In this document: positions 2,276 to 8,553 of the stretch, in pieces
How positions within the stretch are numbered: position 1 is the stretch's first letter
Layout: the number at the start of each line of letters is the position of its first letter
NCBI GenBank assembly: GCA_030527765.1
Contig: JAUNAE010000155.1
Location: forward strand, 1-8,553
Source: Eubacteriales bacterium
GTDB lineage: Bacteria > Bacillota_A > Clostridia > Lachnospirales > Lachnospiraceae
Length of the DNA: 8,553 bases
Direction of reading: 5' to 3'
The notes under the pieces: model-generated
Told to the model about the DNA's origin: nothing
Seen by the model: the letters and a program-made list of their open reading frames with translations, nothing else
The model's database searches: none
Translations under genes and position numbers: made by a program

Positions 2276-3769
2276 ATGCCGGTTTTTGATTTCAACTCCC
2301 CTTCTACTCCTGCTGCCCAGGAGAAGAATATTTGTACTTACACAACATTTGACACAGAGAACGATACTCCTTCTCCGGAGAAACCAATTCTTGTTCTGGA
2401 CAGAACTTCTAGCGAGTTGCCGCATCACTCTGCGGGAATCTTTATCAATCCGGAAGTTCGCTCCTCTTTCGAGTTCGAGATGGATGGTGAGAAAACTCAG
2501 GTGGACATTCTCAAAATCGACAGTCGTTTCGTGAGTCTGATTCAATGGCTTGGACGCAACCGAATCCATGTCCGTCTGTCCGGTTCCAATACTGCCGAAG
2601 GATACGCAGTCTACAAAATCCGTGAAACTCTTTTCAGTGGTGCGAACAAGCTTTCCGCCGAAGATGGCTTCCTTCAGTTCATGATTCAGCGTCTTCTGGC
2701 CAGCCGTCCGGCTCCGGACTCTCCGGAGGTTGAAGATGAAGAACCAGATGGCGATGATATGAAGCTTACCAGCATTCAGAGCATCACTGATTTCATGGCT
2801 TGTGCCGGCAAAACGCTCCCGGATAACATTCGGCTCTGGGCCCGCCGCAATCTTGTCGTTGCCCGTTCCAATGAAGTCAGCCCGGAGGAACGCCGTCATG
2901 CACAGCGTGCTCTCTCTATTATGATGAATGTTCAGTGGAAGAGCGATTATTTCGAATCCATCGACCCGGTTCTCGCCCGCCGTATTCTGGACGAGGAACT
3001 TTATGGTATGGAAAAAGTAAAACAGCGTATCATTGAAACGATTATTCAGATTAACCGCACCCACACCTTGCCTTCTTATGGTCTTCTGCTGGCAGGTCCT
3101 GCGGGTACCGGAAAATCCCAGATTGCTTATGCCATTGCAAGAATTCTGAGACTTCCATGGACCACCCTTGACATGAGTTCCATTAATGATCCGGAGCAGC
3201 TGACCGGTTCTTCCCGTGTCTACGCCAATGCAAAGCCCGGAATTATTCTTGAAGCCTTTTCCATGGCCGGCGAATCCAATCTTGTTTTCATTATTAATGA
3301 GCTTGACAAAGCCACTGCAGGTAATGGCAAAGGAAACCCTGCCGATGTTCTCCTGACACTTCTGGACAACCTCGGATTTACCGACAACTATATTGAATGT
3401 ACAATTCCGACCGTCGGCGTATATCCAATTGCGACAGCAAACGACAAGAGCAAAATCAGTGCACCGATTCTTTCCCGTTTTGCCGTCATCGACATTCCGG
3501 ACTACACCAAAGAAGAGAAAAAAGAAATCTTCAACCGTTTCTCTCTTCCGAAGGCTCTGAAACGAATCGGTCTGGAAAGTCAGGAATGCACGCTCACCGA
3601 TGACGCGGTAGACGCTGTCATCGAGAGATATTCCGGCACCTCCGGTATCCGTAATCTTGAGCAGGCTGCAGAACATCTCGCTGCAAATGCCCTCTATCAG
3701 ATCGAAGTAGATCACGTTCCATCCGTGACATTTGATGCAGCATCCGCAGCCGCACTTCTGGCGGAGTAG
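2276..3769 (+). CDS. Lon-like AAA+ ATPase lacking the protease domain
   Basis: Cytoplasmic AAA+ ATPase of 497 residues whose ATPase module follows the Lon pattern. YGMEKVKQRI (243-252) precedes the nucleotide fold, then Walker A GPAGTGKS (274-281), a Lon-like segment GSSRVYANAKPG (311-322), the Walker B region VFIINELDK (337-345), sensor 1 in IATAND (385-390), a likely arginine finger R401 in LSRF, and sensor 2 GIRNLEQ (457-463). The chain ends about 35 residues later, so the Ser-Lys protease domain of true Lon is missing. Residues 1-240 are not recognisable as the Lon N-terminal domain; an acidic, probably flexible stretch lies near 148-161. Oddity: the Walker B aspartate is asparagine (N341, codon AAT at 3296-3298), while the catalytic glutamate E342 is kept, so Mg-ATP handling may differ. 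AGGAGG at 2264-2269 sits six bases before the ATG. Cotranscription with fruK is the only functional clue. A remodelling, chaperone or regulatory role in sugar metabolism is possible but unproven. Confidence 0.85.
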   Translation: MPVFDFNSPSTPAAQEKNICTYTTFDTENDTPSPEKPILVLDRTSSELPHHSAGIFINPEVRSSFEFEMDGEKTQVDILKIDSRFVSLIQWLGRNRIHVRLSGSNTAEGYAVYKIRETLFSGANKLSAEDGFLQFMIQRLLASRPAPDSPEVEDEEPDGDDMKLTSIQSITDFMACAGKTLPDNIRLWARRNLVVARSNEVSPEERRHAQRALSIMMNVQWKSDYFESIDPVLARRILDEELYGMEKVKQRIIETIIQINRTHTLPSYGLLLAGPAGTGKSQIAYAIARILRLPWTTLDMSSINDPEQLTGSSRVYANAKPGIILEAFSMAGESNLVFIINELDKATAGNGKGNPADVLLTLLDNLGFTDNYIECTIPTVGVYPIATANDKSKISAPILSRFAVIDIPDYTKEEKKEIFNRFSLPKALKRIGLESQECTLTDDAVDAVIERYSGTSGIRNLEQAAEHLAANALYQIEVDHVPSVTFDAASAAALLAE

Positions 3770-3985: not shown

Positions 3986-4276
3986 CTATCGACTTGGGCG
4001 CAATTCAATATGCAATTCCATACCCAGTCCTTTTGCAATTCGCGTCAAAAATTCGAGAGATGGATTGTAATTACCACCTTCCAATCGACTAATATTACTC
4101 TGTCTGATACCAGTTCTTTCAGCAAGCTGAGCCTGTGTGATTCCCTGCTCATCTCTAGCCTTAATAATTTGCGAAATCACCTCATACTGTGTACGAAGTT
4201 CCTCAAATTCTTTTGCTGTCTCAGGATCAGTCAACAATTCTTTTTTCACCTGATTCCATTTTCTTAATTCAGCCAT
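3986..4276 (-). CDS. higA: HigA-type antitoxin, XRE-family HTH regulator
   Basis: A 96-residue protein with a helix-turn-helix of the Cro/XRE class at about 46-85: TQAQLAERTGIRQSNISRLE (47-66) followed by NPSLEFLTRIAKGLG (71-85). The charged N-terminal helices (1-40) probably form the part that touches the toxin. In HigBA-type modules the antitoxin binds and neutralises the toxin and represses the shared promoter. The gene starts at an ATG that overlaps the toxin stop by eight bases and has its own perfect AAGGAGGT (4286-4293) nine bases upstream, so translation is coupled but independently primed. The toxin-first order is characteristic of HigBA rather than RelBE. The module is clearly more AT-rich than the metabolic genes on either side, suggesting acquisition by transfer. 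Confidence 0.88.
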   Translation of the reverse strand: MAELRKWNQVKKELLTDPETAKEFEELRTQYEVISQIIKARDEQGITQAQLAERTGIRQSNISRLEGGNYNPSLEFLTRIAKGLGMELHIELRPSR

Positions 4277-4637
4277 TATTCACAAACCTCCTTATATAAT
4301 CCTCTTTATAACGCAGTGCCGTCTCTAATTCCTTCTTGGAAGTTTTTTGATCCTTTTTCACATAACCATGCAGAAGTACAAATTTATCTCCTATCGAAAG
4401 GAAATAAAATATACGTGAAATATCATTTCCTTGCTGGACTCTAAGTTCCAACAAGCCCTTATATTTTTCCCTTTGGATATTTTTTACATATGGCATTTTC
4501 AAAGACAATCCATGTTCTTCCAACAAATCAATTTCCCAGATTGCTTTCGCTCGATGTTTACTTGGCAAAGAGTTCAAGAATATCATAACGGGTTCTTCGC
4601 CGTTCTCAGTTGCATATAATTCTATATTCCAACTCAA
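4269..4637 (-). CDS. higB: HigB/RelE-like toxin (phage-derived Gp49-like family)
   Basis: A 122-residue RelE-superfamily toxin, expected to be a ribosome-dependent mRNA interferase. Family landmarks are LLELRVQQGNDISRIFYF (62-79), with R66 and R75 as likely active-site residues, and VLLHGYVKKDQKTSKKEL (87-104), which matches the LLHGFxKKxxKTP signature of the Gp49-like branch. The start is a TTG (4635-4637), chosen because AAGGAGGAG (4646-4654) lies just upstream and no ATG fits; the second and third residues are S and W. A TTG start would keep toxin output low compared with the ATG-started antitoxin. It is the first gene of a two-gene operon and overlaps the antitoxin gene by eight bases. 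Whether it is active cannot be told from sequence, but no frameshift or truncation is seen. Confidence 0.88.
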   Translation of the reverse strand: MSWNIELYATENGEEPVMIFLNSLPSKHRAKAIWEIDLLEEHGLSLKMPYVKNIQREKYKGLLELRVQQGNDISRIFYFLSIGDKFVLLHGYVKKDQKTSKKELETALRYKEDYIRRFVNNG

Positions 4638-4897: not shown

Positions 4898-6340
4898 TCA
4901 AATCCCCTGCAGGATTTCCACGGCTTTTCTAAGGGTCTGCTCTTCTCCCACGTTTCCCGGGAAAATCACGTACGGGATCTCAGGGAATCGACTCTCCTCT
5001 CCCGTCTGCCAAACCGGAATTCCCGGCTGAATCTGTCCGAGAACTTTCGCTTTCCGCACCTTCAATGCCTTCGTTCCCACATCAGAGGATGTGATACCGC
5101 CCTTAGCAACGACAAAGGCCGGATGCACCTTCAGATCTCCTACAAGGCGCTGGACTCCATCACTGATCGCAACACTACGAAGAAGAGCACTCTCCTTCGT
5201 ATCCCCCTCGAGCTCCAGAAGTTTTCGCTCTGTGAAGCAGACCACGGTTTTTCCCTGACGAATCAGATCCTCCTCCAGACTCACACATCGGGCAATCTCC
5301 TGCTCAAAAGCTTCTTTTCCCTGAAGCACAATGCCGGAATGGAATTCCACAGGAACAACGGTGTGAAGATTCAGAAGTTCCTTAAGCTGTGCCGTAGTTT
5401 TTGCAGTGTGACTGCCAACGACAACGATTCCACCCACGTCCTTCTGTGTTGTAACCATCTGCTCTCTTGTCAACAGCGGCTGATCGGAAATGCCGCCTGC
5501 AATTTTTACAAAACCTGCTGCCGTACGATACAGGAAAGATCCCTTATGATCCGGCTCTCTCATCACACGATACAGGGCAATGCAGAATACCATGAGATCG
5601 CAATCATCACAGCAGTTTACACAGACTTTGCCGAAATCTTTCACTTCCCGAAGCTGCTGACAAATTTTCTCGAAGTTCTGCTCTCTAAGATCTTTAAGAG
5701 AAATGCAAGTCACCTCTTCCGCTTTGTAAGCACCCTTCGTCTTTTCTTCCACATATTCCGGAATCGAAGACGCCCGATATCCAAAGGTTCGATCCCTTGC
5801 AAACTCCGTCTCACCTGCCGGGACTAACTGATCACCATATTTCACATAATGTGTATTCTGCAGGGTAAAACGTCCTCCCTCCTTAAAATAAGGAAGAAGA
5901 ATTTCCCCGGCGATCACTTCGCCCTGTTTTTCCAAACCTTCTCTGAGAAGCTGGGTCTCCAATGGATAGTGACCGCGCAGGGTAGAATCCCCTCTGGAAA
6001 TGAACTGGTAGGATTTTCCGGTGATTCTGGCCGCCTCTGCAACCGACGCCAGAATTTCCTTATGAATCTTTGTCGTCTCTTCCTCTGTCATTCCCCGGCT
6101 GTTTGTCAGGATATAAAACAGACGACTATCCTCTTTGAATCCTTCTGTCATGCTTTCCACAGACCAGTCTGTAAAAACACTGACATCGTGCACTGTCTGT
6201 ACTCCTGTCGGATCGTCGTCTAAAACTACGAATTTTGTAGAATTCTGTCTGAGTTCCTCTGCCAGCAGTTTTTGAAGCTGCTCTTTGTCCGGCAATGGAA
6301 ACTCGAATAATTTTTCCGTCGAAATAATCTCTGCCTTCAT
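4898..6340 (-). CDS. Four-carbon acid sugar kinase family protein (DUF1537)
   Basis: A 480-residue kinase of the four-carbon acid sugar kinase family (N-terminal substrate-binding and C-terminal nucleotide-binding domains). Characterised members phosphorylate D-threonate, D-erythronate or 3-oxo-tetronates at O4 with ATP in the cytoplasm. Visible landmarks are DDDPTGVQT (41-49), NSR (80-82) and SRGDSTLRGH (115-124) in the first half, then VGSHTAKT (308-315), AKGGITSSD (412-420) and the glycine-rich PGNVG (461-465) in the second half. I took the ATG at 6338-6340, with an AGAGAG stretch upstream; an in-frame TTG at 6404-6406 would add 22 basic residues with no ribosome site. The partners usually found beside such kinases (a PdxA-like dehydrogenase, an aldolase or an isomerase) are absent; the gene stands alone, divergent from the HPr-dehydrogenase fusion. 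The exact substrate therefore cannot be assigned. Family membership is firm. Confidence 0.88.
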   Translation of the reverse strand: MKAEIISTEKLFEFPLPDKEQLQKLLAEELRQNSTKFVVLDDDPTGVQTVHDVSVFTDWSVESMTEGFKEDSRLFYILTNSRGMTEEETTKIHKEILASVAEAARITGKSYQFISRGDSTLRGHYPLETQLLREGLEKQGEVIAGEILLPYFKEGGRFTLQNTHYVKYGDQLVPAGETEFARDRTFGYRASSIPEYVEEKTKGAYKAEEVTCISLKDLREQNFEKICQQLREVKDFGKVCVNCCDDCDLMVFCIALYRVMREPDHKGSFLYRTAAGFVKIAGGISDQPLLTREQMVTTQKDVGGIVVVGSHTAKTTAQLKELLNLHTVVPVEFHSGIVLQGKEAFEQEIARCVSLEEDLIRQGKTVVCFTERKLLELEGDTKESALLRSVAISDGVQRLVGDLKVHPAFVVAKGGITSSDVGTKALKVRKAKVLGQIQPGIPVWQTGEESRFPEIPYVIFPGNVGEEQTLRKAVEILQGI

Positions 6341-6439
6341 AAATTTTCTCTCTGCACTTTCTGTTTTATTTTGCACAAAAACTCTATATTTTAGCCGTCT
6401 GCGCAATTACATCTGTTCTTCTTACATACATATGGTATC

Positions 6440-6468
6440 ATTATACAATGAAGTGATCCGTATTGCAC
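6440..6468 (-). promoter_or_regulatory. Probable promoter of the DUF1537 kinase gene
   Basis: A perfect TATAAT on the minus strand (6440-6445), with GTGCAA (6463-6468) as a weak -35 at a 17-base spacing. Transcription would start near 6433, giving a leader of about 93 bases before the ATG at 6340. The -35 falls within one arm of the inverted repeat at 6463-6517. Confidence 0.5.
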
Positions 6469-6517
6469 TGTTTTCTGGGCATAACATCAAAAATCCCCTT
6501 TTTCCGAAAAAGTGCAA
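6463..6517. repeat. Inverted repeat TTGCACT / AGTGCAA between divergent promoters
   Basis: TTGCACT (6463-6469) and AGTGCAA (6511-6517) are perfect inverted arms 41 bases apart; allowing one extra base, the match continues inward (GTTTTC against GAAAAA). One arm overlaps the minus-strand -35, the other sits at the -35 region of the plus-strand promoter. This geometry would suit a dimeric regulator looping or bracketing both promoters, though no regulator gene is present here. Confidence 0.4.
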
Positions 6518-6538
6518 CATTTCCCTTTGAGATTAGTG

Positions 6539-6544
6539 TATAAT
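6539..6544 (+). promoter_or_regulatory. -10 element of the HPr-dehydrogenase gene
   Basis: A perfect TATAAT, preceded by TG, lies 55 bases before the ATG at 6600. The base block 17 bases upstream (AACATT, 6516-6521) is a poor -35, so activation by a factor bound at the neighbouring inverted repeat is conceivable. The leader would be about 49 bases and ends with AAAGGA (6584-6589), ten bases before the start. Confidence 0.55.
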
Positions 6545-6599
6545 CCATTTAGCAAGTATGAGAAAAATTTATCAATCCACAAGAAAGGACGCGATACCT

Positions 6600-7904
6600 A
6601 TGAAAACAATGCAGTATGTTGTCAAAAATCCACAGGGTGTTCATGCCCGCCCTGCTGCTCTTCTCGCTAATGCCTGCACCGGATTTAAAAGTGAAATCAC
6701 CATTCAGTGTGACGACGCCAAGGCTGCCGGTAATAACGTTCTGCAGATTCTGAAGCTGCACGCTATCAAAGGATCTGTACTTGAAATTTCCGCAAACGGC
6801 CCGGATGAAGAAGAGGCTCTTGCAGCAATTGCAAAACTCCTCGCCGATATTTCTCCAAAAGCAAAGAAAGCTGAGATTCTCAAAGTTGCCTTCTTTGGCG
6901 CAAAGGATTATGATCGCATTTTCTTCAGCGAACTGAGCAAAGATGCTTCCGGTGCTGATGATGGTTATAATGTAAATATCAAATATTTCAGCAGCCGTCT
7001 GACTGCAGAGACCGCTCATCTCGCTCAAGGATTTGAAGCAGTCTGCATCTTCGTAAATGATGAGGCTCCAAGAGAAGTTATCCGTATCCTTTACGATTGC
7101 GGCGTTCGTCTGATTCTTCTTCGCTGCGCAGGTTTCAACAACGTAGACCTCAAAGCAGCAAAAGAATACGGCATTTCCGTAGCTCGTGTTCCGGCATATT
7201 CTCCATATGCGGTTGCCGAGCATGCTATGACCATTATTCAGGCTGCAAACCGTCGCATCCACAAAGCATACAACAAAGTAAAAGACAACAACTTCGATCT
7301 TACCGGTCTTCTCGGCATCGACCTTCACAACAAAGTTGCCGGAATTCTCGGAACCGGTCGTATCGGTGTCTGCATGGCAAAAATCTGCAAAGGTTACGGC
7401 ATGACGGTCCTTGGCTGGGATGCATATCCGAACAAAGCTCTCGAGGAGCAGGGTCTTCTGACTTACGTTTCCAAAGAAGAACTTCTTCAGCGTTCTGACC
7501 TGATTTCTCTCCATGCACCACTTGTTATGGGTGAGGGCGGAACTTATCACCTGATCAACGAGCACAGCATTTCCATGATGAAAGATCAGGTTATGCTCGT
7601 AAATACTTCCCGTGGTCCGCTGATTGACCTGGAAGCTCTGATCGCAGCTCTGAAGCAGAACAAATTCCACGCAGTTGCACTTGATGTATACGAAGGCGAG
7701 GATGAGAACGTTTACACCGACCACTCCTACGATATGATGAGCAGTGATGTTGTTGCAAGACTTCTGACATTCCCGAACCTGATTCTGACTTCTCACCAGG
7801 CATTCTTCACAAGAGAAGCACTTCAGGCAATCGCTGCAGTTACTCTTGAGAACGCACGCAACTTCAACGAGTCACTCCCGTTCGGCGATGCTGAGGTAAA
7901 ATAA
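6600..7904 (+). CDS. Fusion of HPr phosphocarrier domain and D-lactate dehydrogenase
   Basis: A 434-residue cytoplasmic protein with two complete modules. Residues 1-84 are an HPr domain (PTS phosphocarrier) with the phosphorylation centre GVHARPA (13-19): H15 and R17 fall at exactly the classical HPr positions. Residues about 93-434 are a D-isomer 2-hydroxyacid dehydrogenase very like E. coli LdhA: FEAVCIFVND (145-154), RCAGFNNVDL (175-184), VPAYSPYAVAEHA (197-209), the NAD motif GTGRIG (251-256) with D274 after the second strand suggesting NAD preference, and the catalytic set R338 (NTSRGP), E365 (DVYEGE) and H399 (SHQAF). It should reduce pyruvate to D-lactate. The HPr regulatory serine is replaced by N46, so HPr kinase could not act there. 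I chose the ATG at 6600 because it puts His at 15 and has AAAGGA upstream; an in-frame ATG at 6558 lacks a ribosome site. The reading frame runs unbroken through both domains. The two activities are inferred from motifs; a physiological link between them is hypothesis. Confidence 0.9.
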   Translation: MKTMQYVVKNPQGVHARPAALLANACTGFKSEITIQCDDAKAAGNNVLQILKLHAIKGSVLEISANGPDEEEALAAIAKLLADISPKAKKAEILKVAFFGAKDYDRIFFSELSKDASGADDGYNVNIKYFSSRLTAETAHLAQGFEAVCIFVNDEAPREVIRILYDCGVRLILLRCAGFNNVDLKAAKEYGISVARVPAYSPYAVAEHAMTIIQAANRRIHKAYNKVKDNNFDLTGLLGIDLHNKVAGILGTGRIGVCMAKICKGYGMTVLGWDAYPNKALEEQGLLTYVSKEELLQRSDLISLHAPLVMGEGGTYHLINEHSISMMKDQVMLVNTSRGPLIDLEALIAALKQNKFHAVALDVYEGEDENVYTDHSYDMMSSDVVARLLTFPNLILTSHQAFFTREALQAIAAVTLENARNFNESLPFGDAEVK

Positions 7905-7946
7905 GATATAAGAAATAAAAAATAAGAAGTATAATAATACAATAAA

Positions 7947-7980
7947 GCGGAGAAAATTCTATGATTTTCTCCGCCTTTTT
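7947..7980 (+). terminator. Rho-independent terminator of the HPr-dehydrogenase gene
   Basis: GCGGAGAAAAT (7947-7957), a six-base loop, then ATTTTCTCCGC (7964-7974) form a perfect 11-bp stem followed by CTTTTTCTC. It is 42 bases past the stop codon. The minus reading is followed by TTTATTGTATTATT, so it may also serve the convergent gene at 8004-8534. Confidence 0.9.
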
Positions 7981-8003
7981 CTCTTGTCTGCTTCAGCTTA
8001 CGA

Positions 8004-8534
8004 TTACTCAGCCTCTGTCTGCTCTTTTGCTTTTTCTGCAATGTCAAGGAGCATCTGATCTTCCTCAGTCGCCTCGGCTACATTTTTGATAGATACTTTG
8101 TGATCATACCATTTGCCTTTTTTACCAATGAGTGCCAGATCGAACTCTTCTTCCAGAGCCTTCACAGGAACTTCGAATCCATATACTTCCTCTGTCATTC
8201 CGTCACTATAGGTTACCTGGTCATTGGTAGGCTGAAGAATTTCCTCTTCATTCAACGCATCTACAGTTCCAAGAAACAGATTTACAATACTTTTGGAAAC
8301 AAGAGTCAGGTGGAAGGTCATCTCTCCATTTTCCACACGAAGAGTTCCTTTGTTTTTGCATGCCTCATTTGCATGGAACATAGAACTGTCGGACTCAAAC
8401 TCTGCCACATAAACACCATCTGCAAGGTTTGCCGGATCCAGAGCAGCCTTTTCCTCTGCCATTGCAACGGTTCCGCTTACAAGTGACAGAACCAAACCAA
8501 CTACAACTGCACCTTTTCGAAGAATTTTTTTCAT
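8004..8534 (-). CDS. Small secreted protein, possibly with a NEAT-like domain
   Basis: A 176-residue exported protein. The N-terminus MKKILRKGAV plus a hydrophobic stretch (about 9-25) and AMA before EE (24-28) make a clear signal peptide for signal peptidase I; there is no lipobox cysteine. The mature part is a single predicted beta-rich domain (about 38-150) starting DGVYVAEF (40-47), with SSMFHANEAC (50-59), TYSDGMTEEVYGF (108-120) and WYDHKVSI (142-149), then an acidic helical tail (153-176). The DGxY opening and the YDH near the end recall NEAT haem-binding domains, but this is a weak, memory-based resemblance. No membrane anchor or sortase motif is seen, so it is either released or held by a partner. 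I took the ATG at 8532-8534 (GAAGAG upstream); an ATG at 8550-8552 would add six basic residues, and its upstream region is cut off by the window edge. It is convergent with the HPr-dehydrogenase gene. Confidence 0.72.
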   Translation of the reverse strand: MKKILRKGAVVVGLVLSLVSGTVAMAEEKAALDPANLADGVYVAEFESDSSMFHANEACKNKGTLRVENGEMTFHLTLVSKSIVNLFLGTVDALNEEEILQPTNDQVTYSDGMTEEVYGFEVPVKALEEEFDLALIGKKGKWYDHKVSIKNVAEATEEDQMLLDIAEKAKEQTEAE

Positions 8535-8553
8535 GTTTCTCTTCTTTCTCATC

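Follow-up and report, generated by a model that had tools for sequence, protein, structure and literature searches.

The window analyzed here, meaning the whole 8,553-nucleotide stretch of DNA, contains a single gene that joins a complete HPr phosphocarrier domain to a complete LdhA-type D-lactate dehydrogenase. The architecture, its conservation, its single origin, the enzyme I genes of its host genomes and a relative that carries the two parts as separate genes are established below. We propose, tentatively and with slightly less than even confidence, that the fusion is a built-in switch, an enzyme with its own PEP:pyruvate sensor, which would set D-lactate output quickly and without transcription in many rumen and gut Firmicutes. 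If this is true, sugar uptake would be physically and directly coupled to which fermentation product is made, and the bacteria concerned matter for lactate in the rumen and for methane yield. The accessible part of one study links Sharpea and Kandleria, PTS-rich lactate formers, with low-methane sheep, and reports a 12-fold increase in such animals of a Sharpea D-lactate dehydrogenase gene, which may or may not be the fused form (PMC5069950). The fusion also offers a clean test system, with one protein, one histidine and one measurable rate.

The fusion gene and its two halves

The frame runs from ATG to TAA without interruption (Table 1). Pfam matches are PTS-HPr (PF00381; residues 4-82, E 6e-24), 2-Hacid_dh (PF00389; residues 124-424, E 1.7e-29) and 2-Hacid_dh_C (PF02826; residues 212-401, E 4e-45), all scoring far over the curated cut-offs; these were the only Pfam domains matched in the protein at E 1e-3. 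An alternative in-frame ATG at 6558 would give 448 amino acids. The start at 6600 is preferred because of the likely ribosome-binding site AGAAAGGA and because the fused homologues are mostly 431-434 amino acids long. A terminator-like hairpin follows the gene, one of 4 such sites found in a scan of positions 6300-8553, against 1.6 expected from shuffles. The upstream neighbor presumably encodes a four-carbon acid sugar kinase-like protein, although the NCBIfam D-threonate kinase model was matched only far below its cut-off. Because this neighbor is divergent, the fusion gene is probably transcribed alone, as its own transcription unit.

Table 1. Features of the fusion gene, its surroundings and related loci. 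Coordinates refer to the window unless a locus is named.
Feature	Position	Strand	Basis
HPr-D-lactate dehydrogenase fusion gene, 434 aa	6600..7904	+	open frame; PF00381, PF00389 and PF02826; comparison with 202 other full-length fused sequences
AGAAAGGA, likely ribosome-binding site for ATG at 6600	6582..6589	+	read from sequence
HPr domain, about residues 4-84	6609..6851	+	Pfam 4-82; HPr secondary structure in model, blocks 1-80 pLDDT 88-97; column counts
His15	6642-6644	+	column counts
Arg17	6648-6650	+	column counts
Asn46, in place of regulatory Ser	6735-6737	+	column counts
Short variable linker, residues 85-93	6852..6878	+	22% mean pairwise identity in 85 sequences; pLDDT 68 in block 81-90
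LdhA-type D-lactate dehydrogenase, residues 94-428	6879..7883	+	top phmmer match Fusobacterium nucleatum D-lactate dehydrogenase 5z21; 45% identity to 5z21 in fold search
Terminator-like hairpin 3' of fusion gene, 12 pairs, loop 4, T run	7947..7974	+	hairpin scan
Upstream neighbor, SBD_N/NBD_C protein, PF07005, PF17042	4898-6406	-	Pfam
His15-less HPr-like proteins	L063:606-875, L060:9666-9899, L221:252-512		adjoin stand-alone D-lactate dehydrogenase genes

Elsewhere in the window, a 1-phosphofructokinase gene (1352-2254), with no fructose permease adjoining it within the window, lies just upstream of a gene for a Lon-like AAA ATPase that has a lid and no match to the protease domain (2276-3769, + strand). 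A toxin-antitoxin-like pair (3986-4637, - strand) comprises a Gp49-like protein (PF05973) and an HTH protein. A 182-residue protein (8004-8552, - strand) has a start that by eye resembles a signal peptide; neither Pfam nor NCBIfam gives a match at E 1e-3.

Residues were counted in two alignments. The smaller, of 85 sequences, comprises the window and 88 fused frames (84 distinct) taken one per locus from L001-L041 and L081-L127, with none dropped; the larger, of 203, adds 118 further database proteins. Membership of the HPr family is clear by profile (PF00381, 84.3 bits against a cut-off of 23; TIGR01003, 72.1 against 47.9). Gly13, His15, Ala16 and Arg17 are invariant in all 203 fused sequences, and within residues 1-93 only these four and Gly67 are kept in at least 99% of the 85. 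With the Kandleria vitulina homologue set added, the distinct fused sequences number 318. Every one has the His-Ala-Arg loop, which in 317 of them lies among residues 1-60 and in the other behind an N-terminal extension. Mean pairwise identity among the 85 is 51% for the HPr halves (minimum 28%), 22% for the linker and 76% for the dehydrogenase halves. Of 29 disjoint pairs, 27 were usable for the HPr half and give a median dN/dS of 0.14; for the dehydrogenase half, with 29 pairs, the median is 0.084. By both measures the HPr half evolves faster than the dehydrogenase half; with a dN/dS well under 1, it is by this estimate under purifying selection.

Residue 46 is Asn in 178 of the 203 fused sequences, Asp in 18, Ser in 4, Glu in 2 and His in 1, so that Asn or Asp is present in 196. 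The serine that marks Gram-positive HPrs with HPr kinase/CcpA function is thus replaced in the window and confined to 4 fused sequences. Among 40 other HPr genes, hand-picked from 39 of the fused genomes, His15 is present in 38 and Ser46 in 28. The invariant histidine loop and the replacement of Ser46 argue that the enzyme I site has been kept and the HPr kinase site given up. This loss, which the first-pass annotation had missed, points to a sensor with His15 as its only input. Because this loop is also kept in free HPrs, its conservation indicates a functional site of phosphorylation and not, taken alone, a regulatory one.

The dehydrogenase half carries the NAD motif GTGRIG at residues 251-256. 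Arg338, Glu367 and His399, which we take to be the catalytic Arg-Glu-His set from our knowledge of D-lactate dehydrogenases, are kept in 203, 201 and 202 of the 203 fused sequences, respectively. The top fold matches of the predicted model are D-lactate dehydrogenases, and the nearest solved structures are those of F. nucleatum (5z21), Pseudomonas aeruginosa (5z20), Salmonella (4cuj) and E. coli (5z1z), with 43-45% identity in the fold search. Among the 25 NCBIfam families listed, every model of a D-lactate dehydrogenase stayed below its cut-off; still, these nearest solved relatives suggest pyruvate as the predicted substrate and D-lactate as the product. The model itself (mean pLDDT 88.6, pTM 0.83) has an HPr fold at residues 2-83 (strand-helix-strand-strand-helix-strand-helix), a dip in pLDDT to 68 at residues 81-90 and the dehydrogenase thereafter; it comes without interdomain error and gives no confident contact between the two domains.

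The first-pass annotation had described one chain made of a complete HPr domain, with His15 and Arg17, and a full LdhA-like dehydrogenase with an NAD motif and Arg-Glu-His. The single frame, the three Pfam domains and the many homologues built alike bear out the one-chain claim; PF00381 spans the whole HPr domain with both residues where they were placed, and PF00389, PF02826, GTGRIG and the near-invariant catalytic residues confirm the enzyme.

Distribution and origin

The same annotation had proposed a domain-architecture search; the homologues collected here show a widespread fusion, with the phosphorylation loop present throughout the sequences aligned. The best 120 homologues of the window protein (itself included) and the best 120 of the Kandleria vitulina copy all carry all three domains, among the 8000 candidates sharing most words that were scored for each query; a chance fusion or lost stop codon is thereby excluded. 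Nothing found favors an artifact, whether two genes joined through faulty sequencing or assembly or the recent loss of a stop codon, and this reading is refuted by the 318 distinct full-length fused sequences, isolates included, and by the low dN/dS of both halves; we give it next to no weight.

Among the 80 loci listed from a genome scan, 41 are whole fusions (L001-L041) and 38 are stand-alone enzymes, and L042 is cut by the contig start and matches only residues 152-434. The hosts include Lachnospiraceae, Erysipelotrichaceae, Kandleria vitulina, Eggerthia catenaformis, Faecalibacillus faecis, Solobacterium, Eubacterium pyruvativorans, Oscillospiraceae and Selenomonadaceae. Kandleria, Eggerthia, Faecalibacillus and E. 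pyruvativorans are cultured bacteria. Since most of the host genomes were binned from metagenomes, isolated unexpected hosts (Selenomonas, Oscillibacter) may reflect errors in binning. The family to which G001 (the source of L001) belongs was sampled evenly: among 299 genomes, a match at E 1e-60 occurs in 134, of which 11 have full fusions; of 196 genomes from the order of Kandleria (G014), 48 match and 42 have fusions. At the same threshold a stand-alone relative accompanies the fusion in none of the 11 and in one of the 42 fused genomes (G347).

The dehydrogenase halves form one clade, which indicates that the fusion has one origin: a tree built from 54 dehydrogenase domains separates all 30 fused rows from the others by a branch with 100/100 support that is present in 100% of bootstrap trees. 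In a first tree of 82 rows, in which the nearest rows to the window were G083 and Lachnospiraceae, the fused state needed two changes through the contig-cut row L042; without that row there is one clade. The sister rows to the fused clade are L128/G045, L236/G505 and L043/G242. L128 has a separate 86-residue HPr gene (2640-2380, - strand) with His15, Arg17 and Gln at position 46, and the enzyme gene (2277-1273) follows 102 bases later on the same strand. Each gene has its own likely ribosome-binding site, and three in-frame stops, including that of the HPr gene itself, separate the two coding parts. L236, from the same genus, has the same gene pair, and in a third species of that genus the contig ends within the gene. 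No HPr lies beside the enzyme at L043. A clade of the fused rows with L128 and L236 and without L043 was rejected by the AU test (p 0.029). L043 thus belongs with L128 and L236, so that either L043 has lost a neighboring HPr or the HPr became a separate gene in the L128 line.

The HPr tree places the L128 HPr together with the 30 fused HPrs, apart from the 39 others (support 96/86, from few columns and with the bootstrap unsettled); it may lie inside or outside the fused group. The simplest history would be an operon of HPr and D-lactate dehydrogenase genes, followed by one fusion and its wide spread; a later fission in the L128 line may be an alternative.

The idea that an HPr beside stand-alone enzymes is a general rule was rejected by 45 unfused loci and 60 further upstream regions. 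In the 45 loci (of which L043 and L129 are one gene and L044 has only 112 bases upstream) the enzyme is adjoined by one phosphorylatable HPr, that of L128, and by two His15-less HPr-like proteins (L063, L060); the 60 regions, two of them shorter than 800 bases, hold one His15-less protein only (L221). A phosphorylatable HPr thus adjoins the enzyme only at L128 among these 105 loci and regions, not all of which are from distinct genomes. The His15-less proteins, which have the Ser46 motif AKSIMG and are encoded just upstream of stand-alone D-lactate dehydrogenase genes, are a mirror image of the fused HPr and would be a Crh-like partner of the same enzyme, Crh being an HPr paralogue with Ser46 and without His15. 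At L060 a hairpin and T run, seen by eye, lie between the HPr-like gene and the enzyme gene.

Enzyme I (PF05524) was found in 59 of 61 fused genomes; G378 and G456, where it was not detected, are possibly incomplete assemblies. HPr kinase (PF07475) was likewise found in 59 of the 61, the exceptions being G009 and G010 (E. pyruvativorans). All 19 unfused genomes tested alongside have both genes, and neither gene therefore distinguishes fused from unfused genomes. More than one PF00381 match was found in 60 of 61, and a fused HPr with no other HPr-type protein in its genome is therefore rare. The L-lactate dehydrogenase model TIGR01771 is matched over its cut-off in 13 of the 61 and at E 1e-3 in 20; distant D-lactate dehydrogenase families aside, and with many assemblies possibly incomplete, the fusion may be the main NAD-dependent lactate dehydrogenase in many hosts. 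E. pyruvativorans ferments and grows on pyruvate and amino acids, not sugars. Its strain i6 has the fusion with His15 kept (L028:7847-9145) in a genome, G010, without a detected HPr kinase.

Within four genes of the fusion, no neighbor is shared by more than 5 of the 35 loci analyzed, out of 42 (the 41 and the window). Upstream of 84 fused genes, a TTGTTAA-type Rex pattern is matched at 12 of 14 positions in 3 genes (0.7 expected), a TTGTGAA-type pattern at 11 or more of 14 in 10 genes (1.9 expected), and a cre pattern at 12 of 13 in 2 genes (0.6 expected); the expectations are from mononucleotide shuffles, and part of the excess reflects close relatives sharing a site. The best Rex-pattern match of the window is 10 of 14. 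These candidate Rex-like and cre-like sites are suggestive at most and are not used as support. The two-gene operon at L128 has TTGACA, 17 bases and TATAAT (2699-2738, - strand), overlapped by TTGTTAAAGTATTGACAA, which presumably resembles the Rex redox operator.

A proposed PEP:pyruvate switch and other readings

Enzyme I phosphorylates His15 of HPr from PEP, and the phosphorylated fraction follows the PEP:pyruvate ratio. In 2-hydroxyacid dehydrogenases, the first strand of the catalytic domain is part of what moves on closure. We propose that a single fusion, probably of a two-gene operon like that of the sister species, brought a dedicated HPr that can be phosphorylated into one chain with an LdhA-type D-lactate dehydrogenase. 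With PEP as donor, enzyme I would phosphorylate the fused HPr at His15, so that the share of phosphorylated protein would track PEP:pyruvate. Acting in cis on the tethered catalytic domain, the phosphorylation state would set the rate at which pyruvate is reduced to D-lactate. In the fusion, the HPr is attached at this first strand, and phosphorylation of His15 may alter closure or assembly. With Ser46 gone, the fused HPr would no longer answer HPr kinase/CcpA and would report the PEP:pyruvate side only. In the most likely direction, the unphosphorylated form, prevalent during fast PTS uptake when pyruvate is high and PEP low, would be active, and the phosphorylated form, as sugar runs out, would be restrained. 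This direction is sensible because PTS uptake yields one pyruvate per sugar and lowers PEP. We judge the chances evenly balanced that enzyme I-phosphorylated HPr sets dehydrogenase activity by PEP:pyruvate in this way, with phosphorylation, effect and direction all part of the proposal.

PTS control of pyruvate reduction becomes the leading idea because the fusion is genuine, the loop is invariant, enzyme I is nearly always present and no characterization was found. Several observations favor this proposal. The loop is unchanged amid HPr halves that share about half their residues, purifying selection appears to act on the domain, and Ser46 has been lost. Enzyme I is present, fused and stand-alone enzymes rarely co-occur, and L-lactate dehydrogenases are few. 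The fused sequences form one clade, the sister operon has an HPr like the fused ones, and HPr controls enzymes by contact elsewhere. Against it, the linker, though short, is not conserved, a confident contact between the domains is absent from the model, and the HPr half changes more quickly than the enzyme half, as would be expected of a domain on a loose tether. Enzyme I is undetected in 2 of the 61 genomes, the fusion is kept in E. pyruvativorans, and the third sister enzyme, at L043, has no adjoining HPr.

If the HPr instead docked on enzyme I or enzyme II complexes and held the dehydrogenase where the PTS releases pyruvate, phosphorylation would control location and not catalysis. We think this unlikely. 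The hydrophobic patch beside His15 is kept (Val47 in 198, Leu48 in 198 and Leu51 in 193 of 203), and the variable linker and its low model confidence would suit a tether, but docking alone is not obviously in need of an invariant His15, and the gain is doubtful, as cytosolic pyruvate should diffuse fast. Slightly less probable still is signaling in reverse or a role as dedicated carrier, in which a specific IIA or PRD-type regulator receives phosphate from the fused HPr and the transfer is gated by the NADH and pyruvate state of the dehydrogenase. The further HPr-type protein in 60 of 61 genomes would leave the fused one free to specialize, and HPr within multidomain carriers is a known kind of fusion in the accessible part of a survey of PTS carrier evolution (PMC2405797). 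However, with no neighbor recurring in more than 5 of 35 loci a dedicated target is not visible, and catalytic residues kept in 201-203 of 203 sequences make the enzyme half look like a working enzyme. The faster evolution of the HPr half would fit a domain that only aids folding, solubility or oligomer packing, but a mere passenger would hardly keep its phosphorylation loop in 203 of 203 sequences while most other HPr residues change, nor would it be expected to have its own gene next to that of the enzyme, as the HPr does in the sister genus; we regard this role as improbable, more so than either docking or reverse signaling. The switch in cis remains our preferred reading.

Comparison with known systems

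Some members of the family are named by NCBI as "fused HPr family phosphocarrier protein/2-hydroxyacid dehydrogenase"; others are named D-lactate dehydrogenase (a JGI name), and several only "HPr family phosphocarrier protein", so that name-based pathway maps may miss a possible main lactate-forming enzyme. The first-pass annotation knew of no characterized enzyme of this architecture. That statement stands insofar as our literature searches, whose scope mostly excluded subscription journals, recognized no published characterization of an HPr-dehydrogenase fusion; the architecture itself already had its NCBI name. HPr fusions and HPr control of enzymes are known, and a covalent HPr-dehydrogenase is, as far as found, uncharacterized.

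The word "dehydrogenase" is absent from the main text of the survey of PTS carrier evolution, and in its accessible part the partners in HPr fusions are only other PTS domains, IIA and enzyme I (PMC2405797). There HPr is one domain of a longer chain, as it is in the fusion, in FPr/FruB, in multiphosphoryl transfer proteins and in the IIAMan-HPr of dihydroxyacetone kinase operons (PMC2405797). The fusion is not a PTS multiphosphoryl transfer protein, as it has no IIA or enzyme I domain at E 1e-3.

With the LdhA-type D-lactate dehydrogenases of E. coli, P. aeruginosa and F. nucleatum, the fusion shares fold, NAD motif and Arg-Glu-His, whereas those enzymes lack an N-terminal HPr. The fused clade also differs from unfused dehydrogenases in Trp273 (85 of 85), Gly285 (85 of 85) and Gly366 (84 of 85), each present in at most one tenth of 45 unfused rows. 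With the free HPr of Firmicutes, the fusion has in common the whole domain and the His15-Ala-Arg17 loop; it differs in its covalent junction to an oxidoreductase and in the change of Ser46 to Asn or Asp, with NVLQIL where most of the free HPrs compared have SIMGVM.

In E. coli, according to the accessible parts of two reports, HPr regulates PykF, PfkB, NagB and Adk by binding (PMC8167557) and glycogen phosphorylase by contact, and HPr residues R17, K27, S46, L47 and/or F48 are named in a phosphorylation-dependent interaction (PMC5320558). There too HPr acts on central metabolism, but between separate proteins, whereas the fusion is one chain. Crh, like the fused HPr, is a specialized HPr with one input, but as its mirror image, for the fused HPr has kept His15 and lost Ser46.
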